From NCBI RefSeq assembly GCF_900079725.1, contig NZ_LT599032.1:4460054-4524053 (forward strand): a stretch of 64,000 bases of DNA. Reading direction: 5' to 3'. Shown here in pieces: positions 8,656-59,497 of this stretch. The position numbers were made by a program, and so were the translations under genes. This DNA is from an uncultured Dysgonomonas sp. GTDB lineage: Bacteria > Bacteroidota > Bacteroidia > Bacteroidales > Dysgonomonadaceae. How positions within the stretch are numbered: position 1 is the first letter of the stretch; each line of letters opens with the position of its first letter. Under the pieces are notes generated by a model that was not told where the DNA came from, did not search any database, and was given only the letters and a program-made list of their open reading frames with translations.

Positions 8656-10563
8656 ATGGATACCTATCACAAAATACTCAAACAGTATTGGGGTTATGAA
8701 GAATTTCGCCCTTTACAGGAAGATATTATCCATTCCGTCAGCCAGGGAAAAGATACGCTGGGGCTGATGCCCACAGGCGGAGGAAAATCACTGACCTTTC
8801 AGGTGCCGGCAATGGCAATGGAAGGTCTTTGTCTTGTTGTCACTCCGCTTATCGCCCTGATGAAAGATCAGGTGGATAATCTGCGTCAGAGAAATATAAA
8901 ATCATTGGCCGTATATTCGGGGATGACCCGGCAGGAGATTATCACTACGCTTGAAAACGCCATCTTCGGTGATTATAAATTCCTCTATGTGTCACCCGAA
9001 CGACTGGCTACCCAACTATTCCTGAGTAAACTTCGCGATATGAATGTTTGTCTGCTGGTAGTGGACGAATCGCATTGTATATCCCAGTGGGGTTATGATT
9101 TCCGTCCATCCTATCTCAAGATAGCGGCTATTCGCGAGCATCTGCCCGGTGTGCCTGTTCTGGCTCTCACCGCGACAGCTACCCCGGAGGTGATAGATGA
9201 TATTCAGGAACAATTGCATTTCAGTAAAAAGAATGTCTTCAGGAAAAGCTTTGAGCGTAAGAATCTGGCCTATATTGTCCGTAATACGGAAAATAAGCCG
9301 GAAGAACTTGTCCGGTTGCTTGAGAAAATAAAGGGTTCCACCATCATCTATGTGCGTAGCCGCCAGAAAACGAAGGAGATGTCGGATTTCCTTATACAAC
9401 AAGGTTTTTCCGCCGATTTTTACCATGCCGGACTGAGCAGTGAAGATAAATCACGGAAGCAGAGCTGCTGGAAGAATAATGAAAAACGGATCATTGTTTG
9501 TACCAATGCTTTCGGTATGGGAATTGATAAACCGGATGTGCGGCTGGTAGTGCATACCGACCTGCCCAATTCGGTAGAAGAATACTTTCAGGAAGCAGGG
9601 CGCGCGGGACGCGATGGGGAAAAGGCTTTTGCTGTAATCTTATACCATAAGAACGATAGTGTAAAACTGAAAAAGCGTATAAGGGATGAGTTTCCCGAAC
9701 GGGAATTTATCTCTCAGGTATATGATTCGCTCGCTTACTTTTTCCAGGTGGCCGAAGGTTTCGGGGTGGGTATGGTATATGATTTTAATATACAGCAGTT
9801 CTGTGCTACTTACAAATATCCTCTTCTGCCTACTCATAATGCACTCAGGATATTGGATCTGGCAGGCTATATAGAATACACCGACGAGATAGATAACCGT
9901 TCGCGGGTGATGTTTACAGTTTACAGAGATGATCTGTATCATTACGATTTTGAGCGGGAATATGAGCAACTTGTAAATACTATCCTTCGTCTTTACACAG
10001 GTTTATTTACCAATTATGTAACCATTAACGAGGCCGAAATAGGCCTGAAGACGGACAAAAGCCGGAAAGCTGTATATGAAATGCTGAAAATGCTGGATAA
10101 ACGCAATATTATCGATTATATTCCTCATAAAAAAACGCCTCTGGTAGCATACACCCGTCAGCGGGTGGACAAGAAATACCTGATTATACCACGTCTTGTA
10201 AACGAAGACCGTAAAGACCGTTTCGAAAAGCGGATACTGGCGATGAGTCATTATGCAGAGCAGGATGAGCTGTGTCGCAGCCGTATTTTGTTATCTTACT
10301 TCAATGAGAAAGATATCAGCGATTGCGGACAATGTGATGTTTGCCTGGCCAAGAACGATTCGGGAATGACGAATGCAAAGTTCAATAAGATATCATTGGA
10401 TATAAAAGAATTGCTTAAGGACGGGGAACGATCCATAGATGATATAACAGGTGTATTGTCTGATTACCAGGCGCAGGATGTGACCGGGGCCATCCGTTTT
10501 ATGACGGATAGGGGAGTCCTTGAAATGCAATCGGGGAAGATAAGAATGAAAAACGAAAAATGA
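8656..10563 (+). CDS. recQ: ATP-dependent DNA helicase RecQ
   Basis: 635 aa from the ATG at 8656; the in-frame TTG at 8641 lies inside the octamer array and is not favoured. Superfamily 2 helicase motifs are complete: FRPLQEDII (motif 0), MPTGGGKSLTF (Walker A), VVDESHCISQWGYDFRPSY (DESH box), LALTATAT (motif III) and QEAGRAGRDG (motif VI). The RecQ zinc-binding region appears as CRSRILLSYF...DCGQCDVC, followed by a winged-helix-like tail. There is no HRDC domain, as in the shorter RecQ paralogues. The last codons (...RMKNEK) fall inside a heptamer repeat array, so the C-terminus may have been reshaped by repeat DNA. Confidence 0.93.
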   Translation: MDTYHKILKQYWGYEEFRPLQEDIIHSVSQGKDTLGLMPTGGGKSLTFQVPAMAMEGLCLVVTPLIALMKDQVDNLRQRNIKSLAVYSGMTRQEIITTLENAIFGDYKFLYVSPERLATQLFLSKLRDMNVCLLVVDESHCISQWGYDFRPSYLKIAAIREHLPGVPVLALTATATPEVIDDIQEQLHFSKKNVFRKSFERKNLAYIVRNTENKPEELVRLLEKIKGSTIIYVRSRQKTKEMSDFLIQQGFSADFYHAGLSSEDKSRKQSCWKNNEKRIIVCTNAFGMGIDKPDVRLVVHTDLPNSVEEYFQEAGRAGRDGEKAFAVILYHKNDSVKLKKRIRDEFPEREFISQVYDSLAYFFQVAEGFGVGMVYDFNIQQFCATYKYPLLPTHNALRILDLAGYIEYTDEIDNRSRVMFTVYRDDLYHYDFEREYEQLVNTILRLYTGLFTNYVTINEAEIGLKTDKSRKAVYEMLKMLDKRNIIDYIPHKKTPLVAYTRQRVDKKYLIIPRLVNEDRKDRFEKRILAMSHYAEQDELCRSRILLSYFNEKDISDCGQCDVCLAKNDSGMTNAKFNKISLDIKELLKDGERSIDDITGVLSDYQAQDVTGAIRFMTDRGVLEMQSGKIRMKNEK

Positions 10564-10642
10564 AAAATGAAGAATAACTTGTTTACTCGTATCTTGTATC
10601 TCGTTTACTTGTGACTTGTAACCGCCCATAGGGCAAAGTGAA
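10545..10642. repeat. Heptamer array overlapping the recQ 3' end
   Basis: Fourteen 7-bp words in one register, beginning aatgaaa, aacgaaa within the last recQ codons and continuing with cttgt/tcgta-type words. The segment 10615-10641 is identical over 27 bp to 14322-14348 before the LptF/LptG gene and contains the small palindrome GCCCATAGGGC. Confidence 0.7.
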
Positions 10643-10660
10643 AAGTATTTTGACCCGAAG

Positions 10661-13129: not shown

Positions 13130-14260
13130 ATGGATTTTAAACTTCAATATACTGACGGGCAGACTAAAGCCAGAGCAGGACTTATAACAACCGATCACGG
13201 ACAGATAGAGACCCCTATTTTTATGCCGGTGGGTACTCAGGGGGCGGTGAAAGCCGTACATATGACCGAACTGAAAAATGATATAGAAGCGCAGATCATT
13301 CTGGGGAATACATATCATCTGTATCTGCGTCCGGGCCTGGAAATACTTAAGCAAGCAGGTGGTTTGCATAAGTTTAACAGCTGGGATAAGCCTATACTGA
13401 CCGACAGTGGCGGGTTTCAGGTATTTTCTTTAGCCGAAAACCGGAAACTGACAGAAGAAGGTGCTATATTCCGGTCTCATATAGATGGTTCGAAGCACTT
13501 TTTTACACCCGAATCCGTTATGGATATTCAGAGGGTGATAGGGGCGGATATCATTATGGCTTTCGATGAATGTACACCGGGAGATGCTGATTATGCATAT
13601 GCAAAAAAGTCTCTTGATTTGACAGAACGATGGCTCGACCGATGCTTTACCCAGTTTAACGGCACTGAATGTGAGTATGGGTATAAGCAAGCCTTATTTC
13701 CTATTGTGCAGGGTTGTGTCTATCCTGACTTACGCCGCAGAGCCGCAGAAAATGTAGCTTCGAAAGGTGCAGACGGGAATGCTATCGGAGGATTGGCCGT
13801 GGGCGAACCTACCGAGAAAATGTACGAGATGATTGAAGTGGTAAACGAAATACTACCAGCCGATAAACCCCGTTATCTGATGGGAGTGGGCACACCGGCC
13901 AATATACTGGAAGCCATAGAGCGGGGTGTGGATATGTTCGATTGTATTATGCCTACCCGTAACGGACGCAATGGGCAACTGTTTACCCGTAATGGTATAA
14001 TGAATATGCGTAACAAGAAATGGGCTGACGATTTTTCTCCGATCGAAGAAAATGGAGCGTCATTTGTTGATACTTTATATACAAAAGCATATCTTCGTCA
14101 TCTGTTTATTACGAATGAAATATTAGGATTACAGATAGCTTCTATACATAATCTGGCTTTTTACTTGCAACTGGTTAAAGAAGCACGTGAGCATATTATT
14201 GCAGGAGATTTTTCCGGTTGGAAGAAAGAAATGGTAGAGAATGTTTCAAGAAGGATATAA
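13130..14260 (+). CDS. tgt: Queuine tRNA-ribosyltransferase (tRNA-guanine transglycosylase)
   Basis: 376 aa enzyme that exchanges guanine-34 for a queuosine precursor in tRNAs with GUN anticodons. Diagnostic segments are ILGNTYHLYLRPG, LTDSGGFQVFSL (first catalytic Asp), GGLAVGEP, RYLMGVGTP and DMFDCIMPTRNGR (nucleophile Asp). Residues 300-330 are odd. The CxCxxC zinc ligands of E. coli Tgt are replaced: SFVDTLYTKAYLRHL aligns with the cysteine cluster but has no cysteine, although the later IHN histidine is kept. I recall the same loss in other Bacteroidota Tgt proteins, so this is probably a lineage trait rather than inactivation. Confidence 0.95.
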   Translation: MDFKLQYTDGQTKARAGLITTDHGQIETPIFMPVGTQGAVKAVHMTELKNDIEAQIILGNTYHLYLRPGLEILKQAGGLHKFNSWDKPILTDSGGFQVFSLAENRKLTEEGAIFRSHIDGSKHFFTPESVMDIQRVIGADIIMAFDECTPGDADYAYAKKSLDLTERWLDRCFTQFNGTECEYGYKQALFPIVQGCVYPDLRRRAAENVASKGADGNAIGGLAVGEPTEKMYEMIEVVNEILPADKPRYLMGVGTPANILEAIERGVDMFDCIMPTRNGRNGQLFTRNGIMNMRNKKWADDFSPIEENGASFVDTLYTKAYLRHLFITNEILGLQIASIHNLAFYLQLVKEAREHIIAGDFSGWKKEMVENVSRRI

Positions 14261-14266
14261 ATAATT

Positions 14267-14348
14267 AATTAAGAATTAAGAATTAAGAATTAAGAATTAA
14301 GAATTAAGAATAACTTGTCTACTTGTAACCGCCCATAGGGCAAAGTGA
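14267..14348. repeat. Heptamer array with six perfect aattaag units
   Basis: aattaag is repeated six times without error (14267-14308). It continues in the same 7-bp register through aataact and tgtctac, then runs into the 27-bp segment 14322-14348 that is identical to 10615-10641. It fills the gap between tgt and the permease gene. A perfect short array like this can change length by slippage. Confidence 0.8.
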
Positions 14349-41225: not shown

Positions 41226-41235
41226 ATTATTTCAA

Positions 41236-41347
41236 TTATGAGTGATAAGTGAAAAGTGAAGAACTAAAAATGGATTGAAAATCAACGGAGACGAGAGTAA
41301 AAAATATGCTCTGTGTTCCGTTTTTCATTCTTCACTTTTCACTTTTG
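41236..41347. repeat. Heptamer array forming a long inverted repeat
   Basis: The left arm 41243-41263 has words tgataag, tgaaaag, then tgaagaa. The right arm 41320-41347 has gtttttc, attcttc, then acttttc and acttttg. The arms are reverse complements over about 25 bp with few mismatches, separated by about 50 bp. It fills the gap between fabD and rfbD, so the minus-strand transcript could fold into a long stem. Confidence 0.7.
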
Positions 41348-41352
41348 TGCGC

Positions 41353-49194: not shown

Positions 49195-49446
49195 TTTATC
49201 TATGTGTATAGCTGATGGCCTTTAGTTGTTAGCTTATAGTTCTTTGAAAGATTGAATACGCTCCCTGACGTCTGAAAGGGAAAAGGAGTAAGAATGGTGC
49301 AAAATAAAAAGCTGAAAAGGTTGTTACCTTTGTTACCTTTTAATAAGTAGTAAGTCTTGAGTAATAAGTTGAAAGTTATATGAGATACGAGTAGACAAGA
49401 CACGATATACAAGTTGTTAACTGATAACTGTTGACTGTTAACTGAT
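49195..49446. repeat. Composite heptamer-repeat element, copy A
   Basis: A 250-bp non-coding block. Words gctgatg, gccttta (49211-49245) lead; a GA-rich middle and a gttac-rich part with TACCTTTG (49325-49332) follow. The block then ends in fifteen consecutive heptamers from 49342 to 49446, ending aactgtt, gactgtt and aactgat. Copy B at 58973-59215 has the same order; copy A has two extra heptamers (49356-49369). Nothing in 49115-49572 looks coding. A second TACCTTTG lies at 49455-49462. Confidence 0.8.
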
Positions 49447-49501
49447 ATTTCTGTTACCTTTGTTACTTTTTCTCTTTTGTGCTTAACTGGTATAGGGATT
49501 C

Positions 49502-49545
49502 AAAAAAAAAGTAACAGTTACGAATAATATAGATAACTGTTACTT
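49502..49545 (-). terminator. Terminator of dnaB
   Basis: On the minus strand AAGTAACAGTTA (49545-49534) pairs with TAACTGTTACTT (49520-49509), a perfect 12-bp stem, followed by a run of nine or more Ts. It lies about 28 bp beyond the dnaB stop. Confidence 0.9.
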
Positions 49546-49572
49546 TTGTTACTTTATATAATAGAAGACTTA

Positions 49573-51099
49573 TCAGAATGGCACGAAATCATTTCCTGCA
49601 CCTTGCATTGGCTGAAAGTCCTGACCCGAACTTGGAGCCGAAGCGTCGGTGTTGATTTTAGAAGAGAAATTCTGCCCTGCACCGAAATTGTAGTCATCGT
49701 CAACATTCTGGAAGCGGGCAAATTCACTCTTAAAGCGTAGCAATACATCACCGGTTGCCCCATTACGGTGTTTGGCTATGATAATCTCGGCCAGACCAAT
49801 AAGTGAATTTCCTTTGTCATCTTCCAGTATTTTATAATACTCTGGACGGTGAATAAAGCAAACCATATCGGCATCCTGCTCTATGGCTCCCGATTCACGG
49901 AGGTCGGACAATTGTGGTCGCTTCCCTTCTGCTCCCGCACGGCCTTCCACACCACGGTTGAGCTGCGACAGGGCAATGATGGGAATATTTAGTTCTTTAG
50001 CCAGTCCTTTCAATGAACGGGAAATCATACTCACTTCCTGCTCACGGCTTCCATAATTCATACCGCTGGCATTCATCAACTGAAGGTAGTCGATGATGAT
50101 CATCTTAATACCGTGTTCGCGAACCAGACGGCGGGCTTTTGTCCTTAATTCAAATACGGATAAGCTGGGTGTGTCATCAATGTATAAAGGAGCATCGTAT
50201 AACTCTTTTATCTTAAAGTCGAGTTGTTCCCATTCGTAAGGCAGCAGCTGACCGTTCTTTATCTTCTCACCTGGAATTTCGCAGGTGTTTACGATCAGAC
50301 GGTTAACCAACTGTACATTTGACATTTCAAGAGAGAACAAAGCCACAGGATAGCCATAGCTTACCGCCATGTTTTTTGCCATAGACAACACGAATGCAGT
50401 TTTACCCATTGCTGGACGGGCAGCTATGATAACAAGGTCGGAATTCTGCCATCCCGATGTTATTTTATCCAGAGGGGTGAATCCGGTTTGCAGGCCACTA
50501 AGTCCCTCGGGACGGTTAGCCGCTATTTCAAGCAGGTTTAAAGCTTCTTTTATTACGGGATTGATCTGGGTTACGTCTTTCTTTACATTACCCTGAGAGA
50601 TTTCGAAAAGCTTGCTTTCGGCTTCCTGCATCAGGTCGTCTACATCGGATGTTTCATCGAAAGCTTTATTGGTGATCGTGGATGAAAAGGAAATAAGCTC
50701 TCTTGCCAGATATTTTTGGGCAATGATACGCGCATGGAACTCGATGTGTGCAGCCGATGCTACTTTCTCGGTCAGTTGGGCTATATAGACCGGTCCGCCA
50801 ACCGTTTCCAGTTCACCGTCTTTTTTTAGTTGTTCCACAACAGTGAGCATATCGATAGGTGCCTGACGGACAGCCAAGTCAACTATTGCTCTGTATATTA
50901 TCTGATGAATAGTGTCGTAGAAGCTATCCGGTTTTAAGATGTCACTAACAAGCGAATATGCATCTTTCTCAAGCATTAGAGCTCCGAGTATGGCTTCTTC
51001 CAGTTCCCTCGCCTGAGGCTGTACTTTGCCTATGTCAGGTAATAAATTCGTTTCTTTTGGTTTTCGTCTCCCCTGATTCTTGTTATTTGCGTCAGCCAT
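49573..51099 (-). CDS. dnaB: Replicative DNA helicase DnaB
   Basis: 508 aa hexameric helicase of the replication fork. The N-terminal primase-binding domain begins LPDIGKVQPQARELEEAILGALML (about residues 20-43). The RecA-like C-terminal domain has TPLDKITSGWQNSDLVIIAARPAMGKTAF (Walker A about residue 235), LFSLEMSNVQL, MIIIDYLQLMN (Walker B) and SQLNRGVEGR. KRPQLSDLRESGAIEQDADMV and an acidic, disordered tail ending in NDFVPF follow. No intein interrupts the P-loop. The tail region is longer than in E. coli DnaB, which is common in Bacteroidota. Confidence 0.97.
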   Translation of the reverse strand: MADANNKNQGRRKPKETNLLPDIGKVQPQARELEEAILGALMLEKDAYSLVSDILKPDSFYDTIHQIIYRAIVDLAVRQAPIDMLTVVEQLKKDGELETVGGPVYIAQLTEKVASAAHIEFHARIIAQKYLARELISFSSTITNKAFDETSDVDDLMQEAESKLFEISQGNVKKDVTQINPVIKEALNLLEIAANRPEGLSGLQTGFTPLDKITSGWQNSDLVIIAARPAMGKTAFVLSMAKNMAVSYGYPVALFSLEMSNVQLVNRLIVNTCEIPGEKIKNGQLLPYEWEQLDFKIKELYDAPLYIDDTPSLSVFELRTKARRLVREHGIKMIIIDYLQLMNASGMNYGSREQEVSMISRSLKGLAKELNIPIIALSQLNRGVEGRAGAEGKRPQLSDLRESGAIEQDADMVCFIHRPEYYKILEDDKGNSLIGLAEIIIAKHRNGATGDVLLRFKSEFARFQNVDDDYNFGAGQNFSSKINTDASAPSSGQDFQPMQGAGNDFVPF

Positions 51100-51127
51100 T
51101 TTAGTTTTACCTCTTCAATTTTTTATT

Positions 51128-51135
51128 CAAAGATA
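51128..51135 (-). promoter_or_regulatory. -7 box of the dnaB promoter
   Basis: The minus strand reads TATCTTTG (TAnnTTTG) 28 bp before the dnaB ATG. A TTTG lies only 14 bp upstream (51153-51150), shorter spacing than usual. Confidence 0.6.
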
Positions 51136-51278
51136 ACAGAAATAACGTTCAAAGACGAGTTAAGTTTTGAACATGGTGTTAATAAGTCCGGGGATTTAAG
51201 AGATAATTATTATCTGTTCGCTTTTTTTAGTCATTGATGCTGTTGATAATTGGCTGAAAACGCTATTGTTATTAGTGT

Positions 51279-52271
51279 TTAAGGGTTGTATTTAGCTTCC
51301 TTTAATATTGTCTGGGCATCCATATCTATAATGTTTTGAAGAGAAGCACCTTTCTTTTTTGCGTATTGCTCTATTATTTGCCAGCCAGTCCAGGCTCCGA
51401 TTCTTCCGGGAGAATCTTTTGATACAATTGCTGTATATGCGCCATCGTTTATAAAACGGGTGATAATCATGTGATCGGTAGAATAGAGGTAGTTCTGTTT
51501 TACAATATTCTGCCACGTTGATTTTTCATTCTGTTTGCACCAGTCCATCTGGGCTTTGGTGTATCCTATAATCTCGTCCGCATTCTTTTCAGGGAGTAAA
51601 AGGGACAATGCATATAGTATTTTTCCTTCATCTACCATAGCTGATAGAAGAGTCTGGTCTTCGATATCCGATTTCACAACATCGCTCATTAGCCATGCTT
51701 TCAGATAATCCCTGACTAAATATTCAGGTTGCATTTGTTGGCGCTCGAATGGTTGGAAAAAATCCTTATATGCAGTGTAATTATATCCAAGATATTTATC
51801 TACAGATATAGATATAAGATTATTTACGATGATAGTATTCTCTCTGAAACCCGATACATGCATGGCAAATACAGGGAATTTTTTTTCCGGCAGATTTTGT
51901 GATATGAGTGAAGATACATTGGATAACTCTTCTTCGTATGCAGAGATATTATCGAAAGTAGTTAATGCATCTTTGTATATTTGCATCAGTGCAGGATGGG
52001 AAAAGTAATCTCTGAGGGTAGGGAAGAAAGTGGCAGGATCACTATTGTCTATGGCTATACGTCCGAAGGCAGGAAGCAGGAGTGGATATTTCTCTTTCAA
52101 TCCGGATTCTTTTACGGCGTCAGGTTGCTGAAGATAATTGTATACATCTTTGTCGAAACGTAAGATGGTTATTTTTTCTTGTTGCGATAACCCGCTGTTT
52201 TTCTTTGTTGTGCCTGAGCATCCAATGAAAGACAGGATGATAAAAGTCAGCAGATATACTCTATTTCTCAT
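51279..52271 (-). CDS. gldB: GldB-like lipoprotein
   Basis: 330 aa. The signal MRNRVYLLTFIILSFIGCSG gives a lipidated Cys-18. The mature protein matches the gliding-motility lipoprotein GldB in pattern: ITILRFDKDVYNYLQ near the start, FGRIAIDNSDPATFFPTLRDYFSHPALMQIY, VSGFRENTIIVNNLISISVDKYLGYNYTAYKDFF and GRIGAWTGWQIIEQYAKK. GldB is required for gliding and stabilises GldF in Flavobacterium, but homologues occur in non-gliding Bacteroidales, where the role is unclear; gliding should not be inferred here. No gldF, gldG or gldK-N genes are nearby. Confidence 0.85.
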   Translation of the reverse strand: MRNRVYLLTFIILSFIGCSGTTKKNSGLSQQEKITILRFDKDVYNYLQQPDAVKESGLKEKYPLLLPAFGRIAIDNSDPATFFPTLRDYFSHPALMQIYKDALTTFDNISAYEEELSNVSSLISQNLPEKKFPVFAMHVSGFRENTIIVNNLISISVDKYLGYNYTAYKDFFQPFERQQMQPEYLVRDYLKAWLMSDVVKSDIEDQTLLSAMVDEGKILYALSLLLPEKNADEIIGYTKAQMDWCKQNEKSTWQNIVKQNYLYSTDHMIITRFINDGAYTAIVSKDSPGRIGAWTGWQIIEQYAKKKGASLQNIIDMDAQTILKEAKYNP

Positions 52272-52294
52272 TTGTATCCTTTTATGAATTCTTC

Positions 52295-52326
52295 TTTGCG
52301 AAGGTAATTTATATTTCTTAATTTTG
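52295..52326 (+). promoter_or_regulatory. Consensus Bacteroidetes promoter before the 52.4 kb ORF
   Basis: TTTG (52295-52298), a 20-bp spacer and TAATTTTG (52319-52326) form a near-ideal promoter, 43 bp before the ATG at 52369. It is divergent from gldB. Confidence 0.75.
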
Positions 52327-52368
52327 TACCACTTTTACAAGCCATATAATTAAAAAACGCACAATATT

Positions 52369-52716
52369 ATGCTTTATTTTAAAGAAGATATCCCAAACAA
52401 GGATAATAAACTGATATATATTTATAAGGGTATAACAGTCGTTCAGATGCAGAACGAAGTAGAAATGCTAATGTTATCATTAGGCTATAAACATCTGGGA
52501 CAGGGATTATTCGAAAAGGGAAGCCGGATGATGCGTTTGTTGTTCGGGGCATTCTGTAAATACTTTAAATTCAGAGTGCGTATAGAGGATTATAACAATG
52601 GTGAAGTGAAAGTGACTGTATCGAAAGATACGACAGGATTGTCGGGTGGTGCAATTGGGGCGAATCAGGTGAAAAACGAATTTTACAATTTATCCCGGGC
52701 ATTCCAAACAATATAA
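52369..52716 (+). CDS. Conserved-looking small hypothetical protein
   Basis: 115 aa; function not recognised. It is soluble and beta-rich, with VVQMQNEVEMLMLSLGYKHLGQGLFEKG, RFKFRVRIEDYNNGEVKVTVSKDTTGLSGGAIGANQVKNEF near the C-terminus (read as separate segments). A strong promoter precedes it and tsaD follows 54 bp later, so it is likely a genuine gene leading a two-gene unit. A role in tRNA modification is not implied by position alone. Confidence 0.75.
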   Translation: MLYFKEDIPNKDNKLIYIYKGITVVQMQNEVEMLMLSLGYKHLGQGLFEKGSRMMRLLFGAFCKYFKFRVRIEDYNNGEVKVTVSKDTTGLSGGAIGANQVKNEFYNLSRAFQTI

Positions 52717-52770
52717 TGGAAACGATGTTATAAGTCTTTGGATTTATAATATATAAAATACAATATTTGA

Positions 52771-53787
52771 ATGATAACCATACTAGGCATAGAGTCGTCT
52801 TGTGATGATACTGCGGCAGCAGTTATCAGGGACGGTTTACTTCTATCTAATATAATTTCCAGCCAGAAAGTGCATGAGAACTACGGAGGTGTAGTTCCCG
52901 AACTGGCATCACGCGCACATCAGCAGAATATAATACCGGTTGTAGACCAGGCATTGAAAAAAGCGGGGGTAAACAAGAACGAACTGACGGCGATAGCTTT
53001 CACGCGCGGTCCCGGTCTGATGGGATCCTTGCTGGTAGGTACTTCTTTTGCTAAAGGACTATCTTCCGCGTTGAATATTCCGATGATAGATGTAAATCAT
53101 CTGCACGCTCATGTGTTGGCTCATTTTATTAAGGAGGATAAAGATGATAACAATCAGCCTCAGTATCCTTTCCTGTGCCTGTTGGTGTCGGGTGGTAATT
53201 CACAGATTATCCTTGTCAGATCGTACAAGGAAATGGAGATCATAGGCCAAACAATAGATGACGCAGCTGGTGAAGCTTTCGACAAATGCGCCAAGGTGAT
53301 GGGGCTGGGATATCCCGGAGGGCCTGTTGTTGACCGCTTGGCTAAAGAGGGTGATGCAGATAAATTTAAATTCAACAAACCTCACATATCGGGTTATGAT
53401 TATAGTTTCAGTGGTCTGAAAACTTCTTTCCTGTATTTGCTCCGCGATGAATTGAGAAAGGATCCTGACTTTATAGATAAGAATAAAGCTGACCTTTGTG
53501 CTTCCCTTCAAAAAACGATTATCGATGTATTGATGGAGCAATTACGTAAAGCGGCCAAAGATCTGGGAATTAAAGAGGTTGCCGTAGCCGGTGGTGTGTC
53601 GGCGAACTCGGGACTTCGTGCTGCATTTGAAGATCATGCAAAGCGTTTCGGTTGGAAAATACATATACCTCCGTTTGGCTATACGACGGATAATGCAGCC
53701 ATGATAGCTATGACAGGCTATTTCAAATATGAAGACAAAGAATTTTGTCCGATGGAGGCAGCGCCGTTTTCGAGAGTGGTAATGTAA
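52771..53787 (+). CDS. tsaD: tRNA N6-adenosine threonylcarbamoyltransferase TsaD
   Basis: 338 aa enzyme that transfers threonylcarbamoyl to A37 of ANN-decoding tRNAs, with TsaB and TsaE. ASKHA-fold markers: GIESSCDDTAAAVI at the N-terminus, the metal-binding histidines in VNHLHAHVLAHF, LLVSGGNSQIIL, TIDDAAGEAFDKCAKVMGLGYPGGPVVD and AVAGGVSANSGLR, plus the late FGYTTDNAAMIA aspartate motif. Length is normal and all ligands are present. It converges on marR with a 3-bp gap. Confidence 0.97.
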   Translation: MITILGIESSCDDTAAAVIRDGLLLSNIISSQKVHENYGGVVPELASRAHQQNIIPVVDQALKKAGVNKNELTAIAFTRGPGLMGSLLVGTSFAKGLSSALNIPMIDVNHLHAHVLAHFIKEDKDDNNQPQYPFLCLLVSGGNSQIILVRSYKEMEIIGQTIDDAAGEAFDKCAKVMGLGYPGGPVVDRLAKEGDADKFKFNKPHISGYDYSFSGLKTSFLYLLRDELRKDPDFIDKNKADLCASLQKTIIDVLMEQLRKAAKDLGIKEVAVAGGVSANSGLRAAFEDHAKRFGWKIHIPPFGYTTDNAAMIAMTGYFKYEDKEFCPMEAAPFSRVVM

Positions 53788-53790
53788 TAA

Positions 53791-54240
53791 CTACATTTTC
53801 TCCGCATCTGATAGATTGTTCTCCACTTTTGCCAACAACTTAAGAAAGATATTTATTTCATCTTCCGATAATCCGTTGGTGAATATTGCCGTAGCTTCTG
53901 TCCAGCAGGTAATTACTTCTTGTCTGATGCTCTCGGCGCGAGGCAATAGAAATATGTTATAGCTACGGCTGTCAGTTATGCTTTTTTGCTTGACCACATA
54001 TTTAGCGGTGCATAATTTGTCTATAATGCGTGTTGTATTAGCAAAATCTTTCTTTGATTTCTTTGTAAGTTCACTAAGAGACAGGCCATCATCGAGCCAT
54101 AGATAGTATAAGATTACCCATTGCTCAGGGGTGATATCTAATCCTTTTTCACTGATAAGTCTGAATGCCAGTCGCCGGAGTTGGGCGGCAACAGATGCTA
54201 TCTGGTGATTGATACTGTTTTCGAAATTATATTCCATCAT
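53791..54240 (-). CDS. MarR-family transcriptional regulator
   Basis: 149 aa winged-helix repressor. The core is INHQIASVAAQLRRLAFRL, ITPEQWVILYYLWLDDGLSLSELTK (recognition-helix region) and FANTTRIIDKLCTAKYVVKQKSITDSRSYNIFLLPRA, with the wing carrying D-x-R. Start at 54240 (MMEYNFENS); the ORF extends to 54270 inside the neighbour. It overlaps the DUF169 gene by 14 bp and is co-transcribed with it. Two near-palindromic operators on the operon promoter suggest autorepression relieved by a small ligand. Confidence 0.92.
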   Translation of the reverse strand: MMEYNFENSINHQIASVAAQLRRLAFRLISEKGLDITPEQWVILYYLWLDDGLSLSELTKKSKKDFANTTRIIDKLCTAKYVVKQKSITDSRSYNIFLLPRAESIRQEVITCWTEATAIFTNGLSEDEINIFLKLLAKVENNLSDAEKM

Positions 54241-54946
54241 TGATTCGCGCTTTAACTTTGCCCCATGCATGGGTATCTACAAGGCAGGATTCTTCAAATG
54301 TATTGTACATCTCTTTCAGGCGGGACATTGGTATTGCAAAACTTAATATATTTGCTTCTACATGAGGACGTACCGATGGGTCGAACAGTCCGAGAAATGA
54401 CCGTTTGCCGTTTCTTTGATTTTCGGCAACTACCTGTGAAATAGTGGAGCTGCATCCGGAACCAAATGGAGCAGATACCGCATCTGGTTCATTGGTGTCG
54501 AATAAAGTCCATGAAATCAATCCTGTTAATACATCAGGCGTGGCGAAGAATATAATACCTTCGATATCGTCTAATATATCCAGATTATCTATTCGTGAAA
54601 AATGAAGGTATGCTTTGCCTGTAGGAGAGAAGCCAATATTTTCTACAAACTCTTTGACCATCTCCGGAGTCTTCTTGTATCTTTCTTTTAGTGAGACGAA
54701 AGACGGAATCCGTTCTTCCGGAAATTCAGAGAATCCGGTGTAAAACTTGCCACCCATACAACCGATTGTTTCTCTATCCAAACATATTGGTGCGCCTTTA
54801 CGTACAATATCAAGTGCTTTAAAATAGCACCCATTTACTCTTTGTGGCACAGGTTCGGCTATGTCTGAATACCAGAAAGCTATAGGTAATTCTATATTCT
54901 CACCAAATGCATATTGCAGTTTATTTATTAAATCAGTAGATTTCAT
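54227..54946 (-). CDS. DUF169 family protein
   Basis: 239 aa, first gene of the operon with marR. The DUF169 pattern is clear: IELPIAFWYSDIAEPVPQ, a CYF...KGAPICLDRETIGCMGGKFYTGF segment with conserved cysteines, GKAYLHFSRID, GIIFFATPDVLTGL and APFGSGCSSTISQVVAEN. The cysteines suggest metal or cofactor binding, but the function is unknown. Control by the adjacent MarR-like protein is likely, since operators overlie the promoter. Confidence 0.9.
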   Translation of the reverse strand: MKSTDLINKLQYAFGENIELPIAFWYSDIAEPVPQRVNGCYFKALDIVRKGAPICLDRETIGCMGGKFYTGFSEFPEERIPSFVSLKERYKKTPEMVKEFVENIGFSPTGKAYLHFSRIDNLDILDDIEGIIFFATPDVLTGLISWTLFDTNEPDAVSAPFGSGCSSTISQVVAENQRNGKRSFLGLFDPSVRPHVEANILSFAIPMSRLKEMYNTFEESCLVDTHAWGKVKARINDGI

Positions 54947-54958
54947 GATCTTGTAATT

Positions 54959-55002
54959 TATTTGTTATGACAAATATATTTACATTGTTTGTTATGACAA
55001 AT
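54959..55002 (-). promoter_or_regulatory. DUF169-marR promoter with two MarR-type operators
   Basis: Two copies of the interrupted palindrome TTTGT-tatg-ACAAA lie at 54960-54975 and 54987-55002, centres 27 bp apart. On the minus strand TTTG (55001-54998), a 19-bp spacer and TATATTTG (54978-54971) form a consensus promoter, so one operator covers the -33 box and the other the -7 box. Occupancy of either site should block transcription. Confidence 0.85.
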
Positions 55003-55077
55003 AAATTGACGTTGATAATTCTTAGACTTTATATCTTTTATTGATAATTGTAAATTATCACTCATAATTATAAATCT

Positions 55078-55085
55078 TATCTTTG
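55078..55085 (+). promoter_or_regulatory. -7 box of the M48 protease promoter
   Basis: TATCTTTG (TAnnTTTG) lies 16 bp before the ATG at 55102, implying a very short leader. No -33 box at normal spacing. Confidence 0.55.
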
Positions 55086-55101
55086 TAGAAAAAACGTATC
55101 T

Positions 55102-56343
55102 ATGTCTCTATACTTAAGCATTATCCTACTTGTAGTTGTCCTCGATTTTGTCTGGACGCAATACTTGGCGTATCGTAACCGTAAGCGGATGAGCCCCGAA
55201 ATTCCTCCATTACTGGAAGGGATTTACGATAAAGACGAATATGCCAGACAGCAAGCCTATCAAAAGATAAACAGCCGCTTTGGCTTGTATACAAGCCTTT
55301 TCTCTTTTATCGTAATGTTACTGGTCCTGTCTTTGGGTATTTTTGGCTGGCTCAACGAGTTGCTGAGACAATTTATAAATAATGAAGTCATTCTTACTCT
55401 GGTTTTCTTTGGTATAGTATATATTGTGAACGATATTATCACTTTGCCATTCAGCTATTATGCTACCTTTGTGATTGAAGAACGCTTCGGATTCAATAAA
55501 TCGACTAAAGCTATTTTCTGGTTCGACCAGTTGAAAGGTTTACTGCTCACAACTGTTCTAGGGGGCATTATACTGGCTCTTCTGGTATGGTTTTATGAAA
55601 CTCTGGGTACATATGCATGGTTGTACGCCTGGGGGGCAGTAACCGTATTTTCTTTATTTATGACCTTGTTCTATTCCAATATTATAGTGCCTTTATTCAA
55701 TAAGCAGACTCCGTTGGAAGATGGCGAACTCCGGGATGCAATCGAGGCCTTTTCCCGGGAAGCAGGTTTTTCGATAAAGAATATATACGTAATGGATGCA
55801 TCTAAACGTTCCAGTAAAGCAAACGCTTATTTTACCGGCTTTGGAGTTAAGAAACGTATCGTATTGTTCGATACATTGATTAATGATCTTAGTACGAGTG
55901 AAATAGTCGCTGTACTGGCACACGAAATAGGTCATTATAAAAAGAGGCACACATTGCAGGGTATGTGCATATCCATCTTATATACAGGAATTATTCTTTT
56001 CCTGTTATCATGGTTCCTCGATAATGAAGCCATTGCTTTGGCATTGGGAGGGAAAGAGGCTTCCTTTCATTTGGGTCTGATTGCTTTCTCTGTTCTATTT
56101 ACTCCGGTTTCGATGATTATAGGTCTGTTTTCGAGTATGCACAGCCGTAAGAATGAATATCAGGCAGACGCCTATGCTGCCGGTTTTGGCTTGGCAGATT
56201 CATTGATAAGCGGATTGAAGAAGCTATCGGTAAAGTCACTGAGCAATCTGAATCCTGATCCGCTATATGTATTTTTCTATTATTCACATCCGACTTTGCT
56301 GCAACGGATGGAGGCATTAATGGAAATTGATGATAAAAAGTAA
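55102..56343 (+). CDS. M48-family CAAX prenyl protease-like metallopeptidase (Ste24 type)
   Basis: 413 aa integral membrane zinc protease. Several N-terminal helices (about residues 1-200) precede the zinc site HEIGHYKKRH (H-E-x-x-H, about residue 274). The third ligand is Glu in NEYQADAYAA (about residue 352). YVMDASKRSSKANAYFTGFGVKKRIVLFDTL is the conserved strand before the active site, as in Ste24 homologues. Bacterial members degrade damaged membrane proteins; no prenylated substrate is expected. Single gene, divergent from the DUF169 operon. Confidence 0.93.
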   Translation: MSLYLSIILLVVVLDFVWTQYLAYRNRKRMSPEIPPLLEGIYDKDEYARQQAYQKINSRFGLYTSLFSFIVMLLVLSLGIFGWLNELLRQFINNEVILTLVFFGIVYIVNDIITLPFSYYATFVIEERFGFNKSTKAIFWFDQLKGLLLTTVLGGIILALLVWFYETLGTYAWLYAWGAVTVFSLFMTLFYSNIIVPLFNKQTPLEDGELRDAIEAFSREAGFSIKNIYVMDASKRSSKANAYFTGFGVKKRIVLFDTLINDLSTSEIVAVLAHEIGHYKKRHTLQGMCISILYTGIILFLLSWFLDNEAIALALGGKEASFHLGLIAFSVLFTPVSMIIGLFSSMHSRKNEYQADAYAAGFGLADSLISGLKKLSVKSLSNLNPDPLYVFFYYSHPTLLQRMEALMEIDDKK

Positions 56344-56435
56344 ATTTTTATAAAGTATCATTAAACCTTTTAATTTTATTATATTCATATAATATAAACG
56401 GGGCTGAAAAACAGCTATTCATAATCTAAAAAATA

Positions 56436-57503
56436 ATGCCTATGAAACGCTTTTATATAATTATCATTTCGTGCCTGATATTATTGCCTGTAAATATATA
56501 TGCCCAGGGAGGAAAGAAAGAAAAGGTTAGCAAAGATATTTTCGGTAATACCATTATCGAAGATGAAGACGGAAGTAAAACAACAATAAAGAAAGATATT
56601 TTCGGAAATACTGTGATAGAAGATAATAAGGGCAATAAGAAGACTATCAAAAAGGATATTTTTGGAAATACTGTGATAGAAGATAACAAGGGAAATAAAG
56701 AAACGATCAAAGAAGATATTCATGGGAATACTGTAATCGAAGATAACAAAGGGAATAAGAAAAGAGTAAAAGAGGATATTTTCGGGAATACTATCATTGA
56801 AGACAATAAAGGAAATAAAACGACCATACGAGAGAATATTTTCGGTGATAAAGTAATAGAAGATAATAAGGGGTATAAGAAAACTATCAAAAAGGATGTA
56901 TTCGGAAATACTATCATTGAAGATAATAAAGGAAATAAAACAACTATCGAAGAGGATGTCTTTGGCGATAAAGTGATCGAAGACAACAAAGGGAACAAAA
57001 CGAAAATAGGAAAAGATATCTTCTATAACATGATTGTTGAAACGAACCGGAGAAAAGTAAAAATAGGCCGTGATATATTTGGTTATCTTCAATATGAAGA
57101 GAATAATAGAAGGAAGGCATATCTGAAAAAAGATATTTTCGATGCCTGGATTTTTACGGATGATAATAATAATGAAATAAAGTATTCCATGGAGTTTTGG
57201 GAAGATATTCAGCGTGATTTCAGAGGTGATGAAGAAGAGACCTTTTTCTGGCTGATGGATATGTGCCATGGATTGACGGACTACAAAGAAGAATATAAAG
57301 TTGATATTTTCGGACATCTTCAATTCAGCAACAACAAGAATGAACGGGCGTCACTGTCTAAAAATATTTTTGATGAGATGGTTTATGAAGACACCAAAGG
57401 GAGTAAAATGATATATCCGCAGAATTTTTGGAATAAGATGCGCAAACATAGTTCGGATAAAAAAATATTTATGGATCTTATACAACGCTATCTGTTCGAA
57501 TAG
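56436..57503 (+). CDS. Secreted protein of 20-residue KDIFGN repeats
   Basis: 355 aa; family not recognised. A signal peptide, MKRFYIIIISCLILLPVNIYAQ from Met-3, is followed by eight near-perfect 20-aa repeats (residues 33-192) of the form KDIFGNTVIEDNKGNKKTIK. Three to five degenerate repeats follow to about residue 330, with inserts rich in aromatic residues. Each unit alternates Lys-rich and Asp/Glu-rich stretches and contains two likely beta strands joined by a D-x-x-G turn, which fits a beta-solenoid or extended beta-sheet. Role unknown; surface binding or structural use is a guess. It precedes two other secreted-protein genes on the same strand. Confidence 0.8.
   Translation: MPMKRFYIIIISCLILLPVNIYAQGGKKEKVSKDIFGNTIIEDEDGSKTTIKKDIFGNTVIEDNKGNKKTIKKDIFGNTVIEDNKGNKETIKEDIHGNTVIEDNKGNKKRVKEDIFGNTIIEDNKGNKTTIRENIFGDKVIEDNKGYKKTIKKDVFGNTIIEDNKGNKTTIEEDVFGDKVIEDNKGNKTKIGKDIFYNMIVETNRRKVKIGRDIFGYLQYEENNRRKAYLKKDIFDAWIFTDDNNNEIKYSMEFWEDIQRDFRGDEEETFFWLMDMCHGLTDYKEEYKVDIFGHLQFSNNKNERASLSKNIFDEMVYEDTKGSKMIYPQNFWNKMRKHSSDKKIFMDLIQRYLFE
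56532..57011 (+). repeat. 60-bp in-frame tandem repeat, eight units
   Basis: DNA basis of the KDIFGN protein repeats. Eight direct units of exactly 60 bp sit in frame and are very similar, with mostly third-base differences. The opposite strand is also open through most of this region as a by-product of the repeat. Confidence 0.88.
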
Positions 57504-57573
57504 GGAAATTTATTTATGGAATTTCAGTATTTTCATACTCTATTTAATATCAGAATGAAAAACACGATTGAGT

Positions 57574-58161
57574 ATGAGAATGTATTTCACTTTTCCTCTA
57601 TTTTTGTCTTTTTATTTGTGCATATATTCCCAACAGAATAAAGAAGTCAGACCATTTTACGTGAAAAATGATACACTCATAGAGAATCGGTTACTTTTGG
57701 ATTCAAAGCAATTAAACGAAATAAATATTGAGGAATTCACGGAACCACCAATCTTTATAAGTACAGAAATACTCCCTCAATTTGTAGGCGGAGATAGTGT
57801 GATGGAGGCATTCTTTAATAAGAATATCCGGTATCCCCGTACAGTAACCAAAGGGGAAGTGCAGGGTTTTGTTATTGCAAGGTTTGTTGTATTAAAAGAT
57901 GGCAAAATTGATCCACGAAATATAAAAATAATAACATCTCTTTCGCATGATTGCGACAACGAGGTTGTGCGTCTACTACACAAGATGCCTTCTTGGATGC
58001 CTGGAAGACAAGGAGGATTTCCAGTCCCTTTTTATCAGACTATAGGCGTTTATCTGGGAAAGAAAAAACTTAAGACAGTAAGGCGTTTGGTGCCAGGCGA
58101 AATTAATGTGGATGAATGCAAATGGAACGGTTATCACGAAATTATAGAAAAACGATATTAA
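57574..58161 (+). CDS. Secreted protein with TonB C-terminal-like domain
   Basis: 195 aa from the ATG at 57574. The signal peptide is MRMYFTFPLFLSFYLCIYSQ. Residues 70-165 form a TonB_C-type domain: PQFVGGDSVMEAFFNKNIRYPRTVTKGEVQGFVIARFVVLKDGKID, then VVRLLHKMPSWMPGRQGGFPVPFYQTIGVYL. There is no membrane anchor or proline-rich linker, so it is not a classical energy transducer. Stand-alone domains of this kind are common in Bacteroidota, with unclear roles. It sits 70 bp after the repeat protein gene and 22 bp before the next secreted protein. Confidence 0.82.
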   Translation: MRMYFTFPLFLSFYLCIYSQQNKEVRPFYVKNDTLIENRLLLDSKQLNEINIEEFTEPPIFISTEILPQFVGGDSVMEAFFNKNIRYPRTVTKGEVQGFVIARFVVLKDGKIDPRNIKIITSLSHDCDNEVVRLLHKMPSWMPGRQGGFPVPFYQTIGVYLGKKKLKTVRRLVPGEINVDECKWNGYHEIIEKRY

Positions 58162-58183
58162 TAATAGCCAAAACCTTTATACC

Positions 58184-58948
58184 ATGTTGAAAAAACTACA
58201 TCTTACCTGTTTTGCTTTTGTTTTATTATTTCCTCTTTTTGCTCAGGAACCACAGACTATTCATGTGATGGTGGCTTTGTGCGATAATAAATATCAGGGC
58301 ATAGTGAAAGTACCGAAAGGAATAGGTAACGGGCAAGATCCGAATTCGAATCTGTACTGGGGATGCGGATATGGCATTCGTACTTATTTCAGAAAAAGTT
58401 CTGACTGGAAGGAGGTGAGGCGGCTAAAGGCTGACGATATCCGTCTCGAACGTATTGTCTTCAAACATAAAACGAAAGATTACTACCTTATCGCCGATGC
58501 TTATGACGGACAATACATAAAGAACTGTACAGAAGATTTCCTCAGCTCATGTTCAGGGAGTAAGAAGGATACTGTAATGATCGGGAAAACGGTTGTCGGA
58601 CTCAATGGGAATGCTAAACTACTCGCTTATATAGGGCATAACGGGTTAATGGATTTTTCGTTGGCAAATACTTATAGCACTGTAGATGGTAAAACGCGTG
58701 ATGCGATAATCCTTGCTTGCTATAGTAAGCGGTATTTTACACCGTATCTGCGTTCAGCTAAAGCCAATCCATTGCTTTGGTCTACCCATCTGATGAGCCC
58801 CGAAGCATACACATTACATGATGCAATCGCTACATACATCGCAGGAGGGACGAATGCTGCTGTGCGGGAAAGTGCTGCTGCCGCTTATAATAAATATCAG
58901 AAATGCGGGATAAAAGGCGCCAGAGGATTATTGACTACCGGATTCTGA
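58184..58948 (+). CDS. Secreted protein of unknown function, possible CD-clan-like cysteine peptidase fold
   Basis: 254 aa. A signal peptide (MLKKLHLTCFAFVLLFPLFAQ) is followed by IHVMVALCDNKYQGIVKVP and GNGQDPNSNLYWGCGYGIRTYF. The centre holds LLAYIGHNGLMDFSL and, 33 residues further on, AIILACYSKRYF; then PLLWSTHLMSPEAYTLHDAI and a helical end. A histidine in GHNG followed by a hydrophobic strand ending in AC(Y)S recalls the His-Cys layout of caspase/gingipain-type (CD clan) peptidases, though the usual HG is HN here. I recall similar proteins in other phyla, but no function for them. Assignment is tentative. Confidence 0.6.
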   Translation: MLKKLHLTCFAFVLLFPLFAQEPQTIHVMVALCDNKYQGIVKVPKGIGNGQDPNSNLYWGCGYGIRTYFRKSSDWKEVRRLKADDIRLERIVFKHKTKDYYLIADAYDGQYIKNCTEDFLSSCSGSKKDTVMIGKTVVGLNGNAKLLAYIGHNGLMDFSLANTYSTVDGKTRDAIILACYSKRYFTPYLRSAKANPLLWSTHLMSPEAYTLHDAIATYIAGGTNAAVRESAAAAYNKYQKCGIKGARGLLTTGF

Positions 58949-58972
58949 ATTATGTGAATCAGTATTTGAAAA

Positions 58973-59215
58973 CTTTATCTATGTATATAGCTGATAGCCT
59001 TTAGCTGTTAGCAGATGGTTCTTTGAAGTATTGATCGGCCCCTCCAACCTCCCCAAGGGGAGGCTACAAAGAGGGTAAAAGTAATAGGTAGAAAAAGTGT
59101 TACGTTTGTTACTTTTTAACAAGTAGTAAGCTGAAAGTTATATGAGATACGAGTAGACAAGACACGAGATACAAGCTGCTAACTGATGACTGTTCATTGT
59201 TCACTGATAACTGAA
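58973..59215. repeat. Composite heptamer-repeat element, copy B
   Basis: Same layout as 49195-49446: words gctgata, gccttta (58990-59024), then a GC-rich stretch with CCTCCCC and GGGGAGG (59040-59067). A gttac-rich part with TACGTTTG (59101-59108) follows. Fourteen heptamers end it (59118-59215), lacking two words present in copy A. The remainder to cinA (59216-59497) is also repeat-like, with TACCTTTG at 59229, 59336 and 59460 and reversed aattaag words at 59418-59447. No gene is seen in 58949-59525. Confidence 0.8.
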
Positions 59216-59255
59216 CTGTTATATGTGTTACCTTTGTTACTTTTTATATAGTGTT

Positions 59256-59313
59256 CTTTGTGCTCCTCGTGGTAAAGATATTAACCACTAAGTGCACGAA
59301 GGAAATCACAAAG
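59256..59313. repeat. CACGAAG-type inverted repeat
   Basis: CTTTGTG (59256-59262) pairs with CACAAAG (59307-59313), and inside it CGTGGT is complementary to ACCAC, with CACGAAGG words between. Sequences of this ACCAC...CACGAAG type are, as I recall, scattered in many unrelated bacterial and archaeal genomes; their nature is unresolved. Confidence 0.5.
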
Positions 59314-59497
59314 GGATAAAAGGATAAAAAACTGTTACCTTTGTTACCTTTTTGCACGTTAGAGCCTCTGTGTGAGAATACTGTTTACTGAAACGTTGAT
59401 AATTTTCGGGTTTGCCCTAATTCTTAATTCTTAATTATTCGTTCTTCATTAATTCCTGTTACCTTTGTTACTTTTTAACAGTAAATAAGGCAAAACT

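Follow-up and report, generated by a model that had tools for sequence, protein, structure and literature searches.

Heptamer-word arrays between Dysgonomonas genes as probable parts of a dispersed mosaic repeat

What gives rise to long runs of DNA that keep a strict 7-bp period and yet change their word from one repeat to the next? The question is raised by a 64,000-nucleotide stretch from an uncultured Dysgonomonas sp. (assembly GCF_900079725.1, contig NZ_LT599032.1, positions 4,460,054 to 4,524,053), in which two gaps between genes carry such runs, termed here arrays A and B (Table 1). We refer to this whole stretch as the window and use its numbering; seven-digit numbers are genome positions. 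Our analysis indicates that A and B are probably two copies of a non-coding, dispersed Dysgonomonas repeat with a mosaic build, consisting of a leader and variable cassettes with end motifs, many of these cassettes being arrays of degenerate 7-bp words subject to whole-word slippage and recombination.

An initial annotation of this DNA had described 15 and 14 consecutive words in a single register, and both arrays are borne out by their self-match at lag 7, which is 0.59 in A and 0.60 in B compared with 0.14-0.33 at the remaining lags within 1-13. The lag-7 segments span 49341-49447 (score 19.9) and 59106-59214 (score 20.1), and these scores were reached in 0 of 2000 dinucleotide shuffles of either gap (shuffle maxima 12.2 and 12.4). 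In array A, Tandem Repeats Finder (TRF) recognises just TAACTGA, at 4.3 copies, and a 14-bp double word, at 2.1 copies, and it lists nothing within array B; the words of both arrays are mixed, and neither is a heptanucleotide tandem repeat with one uniform or near-uniform unit. The annotation also held that the arrays differ by exactly two heptamers. An alignment of A and B confirms a 14-bp block in A (49356-49369) that is missing from B, but reveals that the lengths differ by another 12 bp close to the 3′ end, where B is the longer. From flanking motif to flanking motif the distance is 111 bp in A and 109 bp in B. The likeness between the two copies begins at a leader (49195 and 58974), about 140 bp 5′ of the arrays.

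A mosaic composite, dispersed and patchily amplified

The arrays are embedded in a composite with a recurring order: a leader (TTTATCTAT), then GTTCTTTGAA, then cassettes, each closed by a 19-bp end motif, GTTACCTTTGTTACYTTTT or near variants, with the form TGTTAC-NNN-TGTTAC-YTTTT. End motifs stand both before and after each of arrays A and B. The gap that holds B contains four of them, closing three cassettes after the first motif. One is the array itself; the next is an imperfect inverted repeat, CTTTGTG/CACAAAG, and the last finishes with a further heptamer array made of TAATTCT words. Palindromes serve as cassettes in composite copies more widely, with CCCCTCC/GGGGAGG and GTAGGGGC/GCCCCTAC used in addition to CTTTGTG/CACAAAG, the one seen at window positions 59256-59313. 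Short palindromes that seem similar to these cassettes are familiar from other phyla.

The composite is dispersed through the genome. A 281-bp query around B found at least 70 places by BLAST, with the best 40 of 222 candidates scored, so the initial annotation was right that A and B are long intergenic copies but not that there are two. In 1.6 Mb of sampled sequence, 194 of 782 gaps of at least 40 bp resemble another gap, 149 of them in one linked cluster, and alignments between loci reach 498 bp at 88% identity. We extracted 60 array copies from the sampled sequence, 49 from this genome and 11 from a sister genome (G019, a Dysgonomonas metagenome assembly with about 83-92% nucleotide identity to our genome, G000, in aligned blocks); judged by eye, their word order is similar, with words missing or added. 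The element lies between genes: 109 of 112 end motifs fall in gaps between open reading frames (ORFs) of at least 100 aa, and when ORFs down to 60 aa are counted, 9 of 63 fall inside one. Searches of gap B against plasmid and phage collections gave no match in either.

We surveyed 25 Dysgonomonas genomes, some of them incomplete, and 16 genomes outside the genus. The exact end motif occurs 111 times in our genome and 143 times in the sister, at least once in 14 of the 25 Dysgonomonas genomes and in none of the 16 others; the reversed motif, used as a control, occurs in no genome. The array core GATACRAGTAGACRAGATAC (up to 2 mismatches) has 66 occurrences in our genome, 120 in the sister, 66 in G024 and 59 in G001, which is about half complete; the remaining 21 Dysgonomonas genomes have 0-7, and the reversed control gave 1 match, in G009. 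G001 contains no exact end motif and G024 contains nine. In three stretches that we read in G024, heptamer-word hairpins form units about 145 bp long, with a variant motif, GTTACATGTGTTACTTTTT, between one unit and the next. Amplification is thus patchy within the genus, and the architecture recurs in G024 with altered sequence. A wider count does not single out the TAACTGN word: three in a row occur in 10 of 118 Bacteroidota genomes, and a reversed control pattern (GTCAAT with one base between copies) is found in 8 of the 118. The latter pattern, with 10 places in genome G142, reveals other heptamer arrays in those 8 genomes.

Orthologous gaps differ in whether they hold the composite. Gap A, between the convergent genes secDF and dnaB, could be bounded in 13 of the 25 genomes; it measures about 464 bp in our genome, 500 bp in the sister and 119-261 bp in ten others, and in G012 it is 1110 bp long with sequence that looks unrelated by eye. 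Gap B, bounded in 10 of the 25, is 580 bp long in our genome and 33-231 bp in nine others, the 231-bp gap of G004 being a short version with two end motifs. We did not find the 254-aa gene next to cinA in the sister, where the DNA 5′ of cinA holds one exact end motif and heptamer words. Elsewhere, the sister gap at 1635646 is 449 bp longer and has a composite absent from our genome, and at 1565021 our genome has an extra 228 bp that include array words as well as a palindrome cassette. A different repeated palindrome, whose ends resemble AAGGTCT.AGACCT, is longer or confined to one sister at 4506130 (an insert in the sister), 1643821 and 1677356.

Seven-bp words in array length and in hairpin slots

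A 7-bp period stands out in the intergenic DNA of this genome. Over 132,314 intergenic bp drawn from 1.2 Mb, autocorrelation at lag 7 is 0.3207 compared with 0.2925 for shuffled sequence (z 26.9), and there are additional peaks at lag 14 (z 7.5) and lag 21 (z 7.0). Some rise is seen at every lag from 2 to 10 (z 4.4-25.4, including 25.4 at lag 2, 14.8 at lag 4, 8.8 at lag 6 and 12.1 at lag 8), and lag 7 exceeds its neighbours. Coding DNA, taken from the first 600 long ORFs, has a period of 3 and no peak at 7. Segments scoring at least 12 in the 782 gaps number 76 at lag 7 (5,883 bp), versus 0, 5, 9 and 9 at lags 5, 6, 8 and 9; five shuffles of those gaps yielded 0-2 segments at lags 6-8. The test against shuffled DNA that the initial annotation had proposed is therefore passed.

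We compared the lag-7 excess across eight genomes, a set that leaves aside G024 and G001 and in which genomes other than ours and the sister are represented by 3.5-12 kb of gap DNA each. A strong excess is confined to our genome (+0.027, z 25.0) and the sister (+0.028, z 11.7). Four other Dysgonomonas give +0.001 to +0.014 (z 0.3-3.0) from these small samples; the highest of them, G011 (z 3.0, borderline), is raised more at lags 6 and 8. Another Bacteroidia genome gives -0.002 (z -0.4) and E. coli +0.012 (z 1.1).

Arrays also change length by whole words. We compared 178 orthologous gaps between the sisters; the 139 in which both sides measured 30 bp or more yielded 194 anchored internal insertions or deletions (indels), 50 of them of at least 4 bp. 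Indels of 4, 5, 6, 7, 8, 9 and 10 bp were counted 4, 6, 0, 11, 2, 1 and 4 times; 7 bp is the commonest length above 3 bp (11 of 28 between 4 and 10 bp, p 0.001), and multiples of 7 make up 14 of 42 indels of 4-31 bp (p 0.0015). Several of the 7-bp indels are exact tandem copies and others are not. Indels in conserved slots include 7 bp at 4558701, 7 and 15 bp at 4561341, and 14 and 7 bp at 1690370. Between array copies (38 of the 60 copies, 50-130 bp, 597 pairs), multiples of 7 account for 229 of the 268 indels that reach 4 bp, and of the 8 between nearest neighbours, 7 measure exactly 7 bp. Because array-copy pairs are non-independent and the aligner favours periodic gaps, the ortholog comparison is the stronger of the two. 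Together with the lag-7 signal, both sets of indels support the earlier proposal that the heptamer is the evolving unit, and the excess of 7-bp indels at orthologous gaps is what its authors had asked to see.

Less expected are word-built hairpins in some short gaps. A strong palindrome is present in 23 of the 59 co-directional gaps of 40-160 bp that lack an end motif and contain segments with a 7- or 8-bp period, versus 35 of 321 without such segments. Folding energy hardly differs, with a median z of -2.21 in 49 array gaps and -1.84 in 60 other short gaps sampled. Sorting these hairpin slots by eye, we found different words in the two sisters at three of them: AGTGAAA-word hairpins in our genome versus GTTATGA-type words in the sister at 4501279; AATTAAG/AATGATG words versus eight-base GCCAATAT-type words at 1566801; and TTTTCAAA-like words versus GCCAATGT words at 4560451. 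At 1649516 one hairpin arm is common to both sisters and the other arm differs, and at 4504230, 4566098 and 1645794 a word array is present in one sister only. In array gaps, G-T and A-C mispairs within hairpin arms number 34 and 28, no clear excess, and we dropped selection at the RNA level as a candidate cause. We likewise rejected loss of SbcD as the reason why hairpins persist: sbcD is present in our genome but not in the sister, and G014, which carries it, shows no lag-7 burst over 80 kb of sampled sequence. SbcD scores above its family cut-off in 5 of the 25 Dysgonomonas genomes, some of them incomplete, with a patchy distribution.

Origin of the arrays: a dispersed repeat and its rivals

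We consider it probable that a dispersed mosaic repeat, reshaped by slippage and recombination, accounts for A and B. Copies would spread either as non-autonomous DNA or by recombination through the common end motif and words, and the same recombination between copies could shuffle cassettes. Within arrays, the polymerase would slip by one word and homogenise the period, point mutations would let the words drift, and insertions in genes would be lost, restricting survival to gaps. Any function of the composite is probably secondary. Slippage and recombination can explain the length changes, as the initial annotation had suggested, and the template-independent process that it raised as another possibility is not needed; the same two processes do not explain replaced hairpins or why the unit is 7.

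Several observations weigh against this explanation. One tandem-copy indel inside an array (4561405) is 15 bp long, not a multiple of 7, and the spacing from one end motif to the next shows no clear quantisation in steps of 7 (46 array cassettes, chi-square 10.9, 6 df). Neither terminal inverted repeats nor target duplications were evident in three composite gaps compared between the sisters, a comparison short of a systematic test. A search of the Y1 transposase family identified no mobilising enzyme, its single hit (2267469) being flanked by other palindromes. Slippage alone cannot account for hairpin slots with different words. Finally, the end motif lies in sense orientation in 43 co-directional gaps and in antisense in 4 (p 3e-9, our genome plus sister; 34 and 4 in our genome alone), a strand bias relative to the next gene that exceeds a neutral insertion model and hints at a transcriptional role.

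This bias also speaks for a functional transcribed leader, in which TTTATCTAT and a boxA-like GTTCTTTGAA would start an RNA leader, hairpins and end motifs would control the next gene, and arrays would be tolerated spacer. All four ribosomal RNA (rRNA) leaders (L192-L195) carry GGTCTTTGAAGG, which resembles GTTCTTTGAA and which we take to be a possible boxA. RGTAACA, which can pair with TGTTAC, lies within 60 nt upstream of 13 of 128 end motifs and downstream of 3 of 128, a directional difference that fits a leader, yet a pairing partner is thereby limited to a small share of the motifs. Nor do the next genes share a theme: for 61 composites we scanned 47, found no common function and counted 8 that are translation-related by name, examples being seryl- and threonyl-transfer RNA synthetase, EF-G, MnmE, chaperonin, sulfatase, glycosidases and transporters. 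The composite is missing at gaps A and B from most other species, the composites of the two sisters differ, and the mispair counts given above do not point to RNA-level selection. Taken together, we regard a transcribed leader as rather unlikely.

Further observations concern strand and RNA. Short gaps (40-140 bp) with a lag-7 segment make up 45 of 344 co-directional and 4 of 111 convergent or divergent gaps (p 0.004), and in motif-free co-directional gaps the segment often reaches from the stop codon to a few bases before the next start. A theme of downstream translation genes, seen in 7 of the first 20 genes scanned, was dropped when it appeared in only 1 of the next 27. Rfam gave 0 matches in the window and one in seven further loci, located away from the arrays described here, so that no array matched a known RNA family in this search. 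That match, at L179:7520-7590 (+), is to the Bacteroidetes FopS small RNA family.

A simpler account, in which simple repeats grow in place by 7-bp slippage and then mutate, with the likeness between loci being convergent, draws on the several 7-bp indels that are exact tandem copies and on published work. Heptamers are the most abundant class of intergenic tandem repeat in many prokaryotes (Mori, 2018, PMC6344855), and a polymerase contact length of about 7 nt was proposed in 2007 as their cause (reported in PMC4679880 and PMC4692102). This account is contradicted for A and B by the alignments of up to 498 bp at 88% identity between loci, the common leader and end motif, and the 60 copies with similar word order by eye, all of which require dispersal. 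We hold it to be decidedly unlikely overall, though it may apply to isolated arrays such as that at 14257-14313.

Least probable of all, and to our minds very unlikely, is active rewriting by an enzyme or copying process that writes short-word hairpins into slots between genes: the sister slots with different words, one changed arm or a one-sided array would suit it, but serial gain and loss of dispersed hairpins yields the same pattern, mirrored arm word order is weakly above permutation (mean 19.1 versus 16.6 over 15 hairpins, no single one of which falls below 0.05), array gaps fold with energies near those of other short gaps, and no enzyme was found. As a statement about the slots themselves, the idea that they are rewritten by copying (hairpin-templated strand switching, a reverse transcriptase or a transposase) that inserts hairpins made from a limited set of 7-8-nt words is a long shot. 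If it were true, rewriting would replace earlier words, sisters would differ in the same slot, and the genome-wide 7-bp period would be its step size.

Under the dispersed-repeat reading we also considered mobilisation of the RAYT (REP-associated tyrosine transposase)/IS200 type, and rejected it, as the sole Y1 transposase found is unlinked to the arrays. This gene, at L191:1360-2000, is flanked by GC-rich palindromes; we take it to be RAYT-like and, from the look of the sequence, presumably placed between a cell-wall and a division gene.

The features of the two composites and of three other word arrays in the window are collected in Table 1. The window also contains a coding tandem repeat of 60/120/240 bp (56535-57000), within a 355-aa ORF at 56436-57503.

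Table 1. Composite elements and heptamer-word arrays in the window.
Feature	Position	Strand	Basis
Leader of copy A, TTTATCTATGTG... to GTTCTTTGAA (49239-49248)	49195-49248	+	Alignment with copy B; similar leaders at other copies
Cassette-end motif 1 (GTTACCTTTGTTACCTTTT), before array A	49323-49341	+	Motif positions; 111 exact genome copies, reversed control 0
Mixed-word heptamer array A, 15 words	49342-49446	+	Register; lag-7 segment score
Cassette-end motif 2, after array A	49453-49471	+	Motif positions
Leader of copy B, to GTTCTTTGAA (59018-59027)	58974-59027	+	Alignment with A; motif positions
Cassette-end motif before array B (GTTACGTTTGTTACTTTTT)	59099-59117	+	Motif positions
Mixed-word heptamer array B, 14 words	59118-59215	+	Register; lag-7 segment score
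Cassette-end motif after array B	59227-59245	+	Motif positions
Cassette, imperfect inverted repeat CTTTGTG...CACAAAG	59256-59313	+	Sequence; found in other composite copies
Third cassette-end motif of gap B	59334-59352	+	Motif positions
Second heptamer array of gap B, TAATTCT words; lag-7 segment extends to 59477	59416-59456	+	TRF; lag-7 score
Fourth cassette-end motif of gap B, 5′ of cinA	59458-59476	+	Motif positions
Word-built hairpin slot, AGTGAAA/AACTAAA words; lag-7 segments 41230-41270 and 41305-41346	41226-41352 (genome 4501279-4501405)		Sister comparison
Near-uniform ATTAAGA array	14257-14313		Fewer copies in sister genome
Mixed-word array, AATGAAA words then CTCGTATCTTGTATCTCGT words	10542-10646		Sequence

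Relation to known repeats

A sister pair rich in arrays, set beside quiet Dysgonomonas, is a natural experiment: it allows one to measure how fast, at what lengths and where words are gained, lost or replaced, and to look for the genetic change that separates burst from quiet lineages. In cyanobacteria, intergenic heptanucleotide repeats are known as short tandemly repeated repetitive (STRR) sequences. Their reach is wider: TAACTGA repeats are described in Beggiatoaceae, Cyanobacteria and five Bacteroidetes, some gaps holding several other heptamer repeats and close relatives lacking them (MacGregor, 2015, PMC4679880), TAACTGA is present in Thiomargarita (PMC4853749), and GGGAATC and GGGGA(C/T)T repeats occur in Xanthomonas and Nostoc (PMC4692102). 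Heptamer repeats in general are described as giving no clear clue to function (PMC6344855). In view of the five Bacteroidetes, the statement in the initial annotation that it knew of no described equivalent in Bacteroidota went too far. Among the matches listed in the open-licence literature, no paper describes this Dysgonomonas element.

The composite shares parts of its character with several established classes. Bacterial interspersed mosaic elements (BIMEs) and the repetitive extragenic palindromes (REPs) within them are extragenic mosaics of short motifs and palindromes, and the Dysgonomonas element is likewise a mosaic of short motifs and palindromes between genes; unlike them, its unit is an array of 7-bp words, and the one RAYT-like gene is unlinked to the arrays and has a different palindrome. 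Miniature inverted-repeat transposable elements resemble it in being short, non-coding, present in many copies and patchy between relatives, but the terminal inverted repeats and target duplications expected of them were not seen in the three gaps compared, and the Y1 family search identified no parent transposase. Some end motifs could form GTAACA...TGTTAC stems 5′ of a T run, as in intrinsic terminators and attenuated leaders, whereas for most the stem partner is absent. Closest are the intergenic heptanucleotide tandem repeats, with which the arrays share a head-to-tail 7-bp unit, a place between genes, whole-unit copy change between relatives (with the one 15-bp exception) and, in A and B, TAACTGN words. 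In contrast to those repeats, the Dysgonomonas words are mixed and ordered, and an array is one cassette of a dispersed mosaic. Bacteria are known to carry heptamer repeats; the mosaic of mixed words described here, with its turnover between sister species, is an unusual variant of them.

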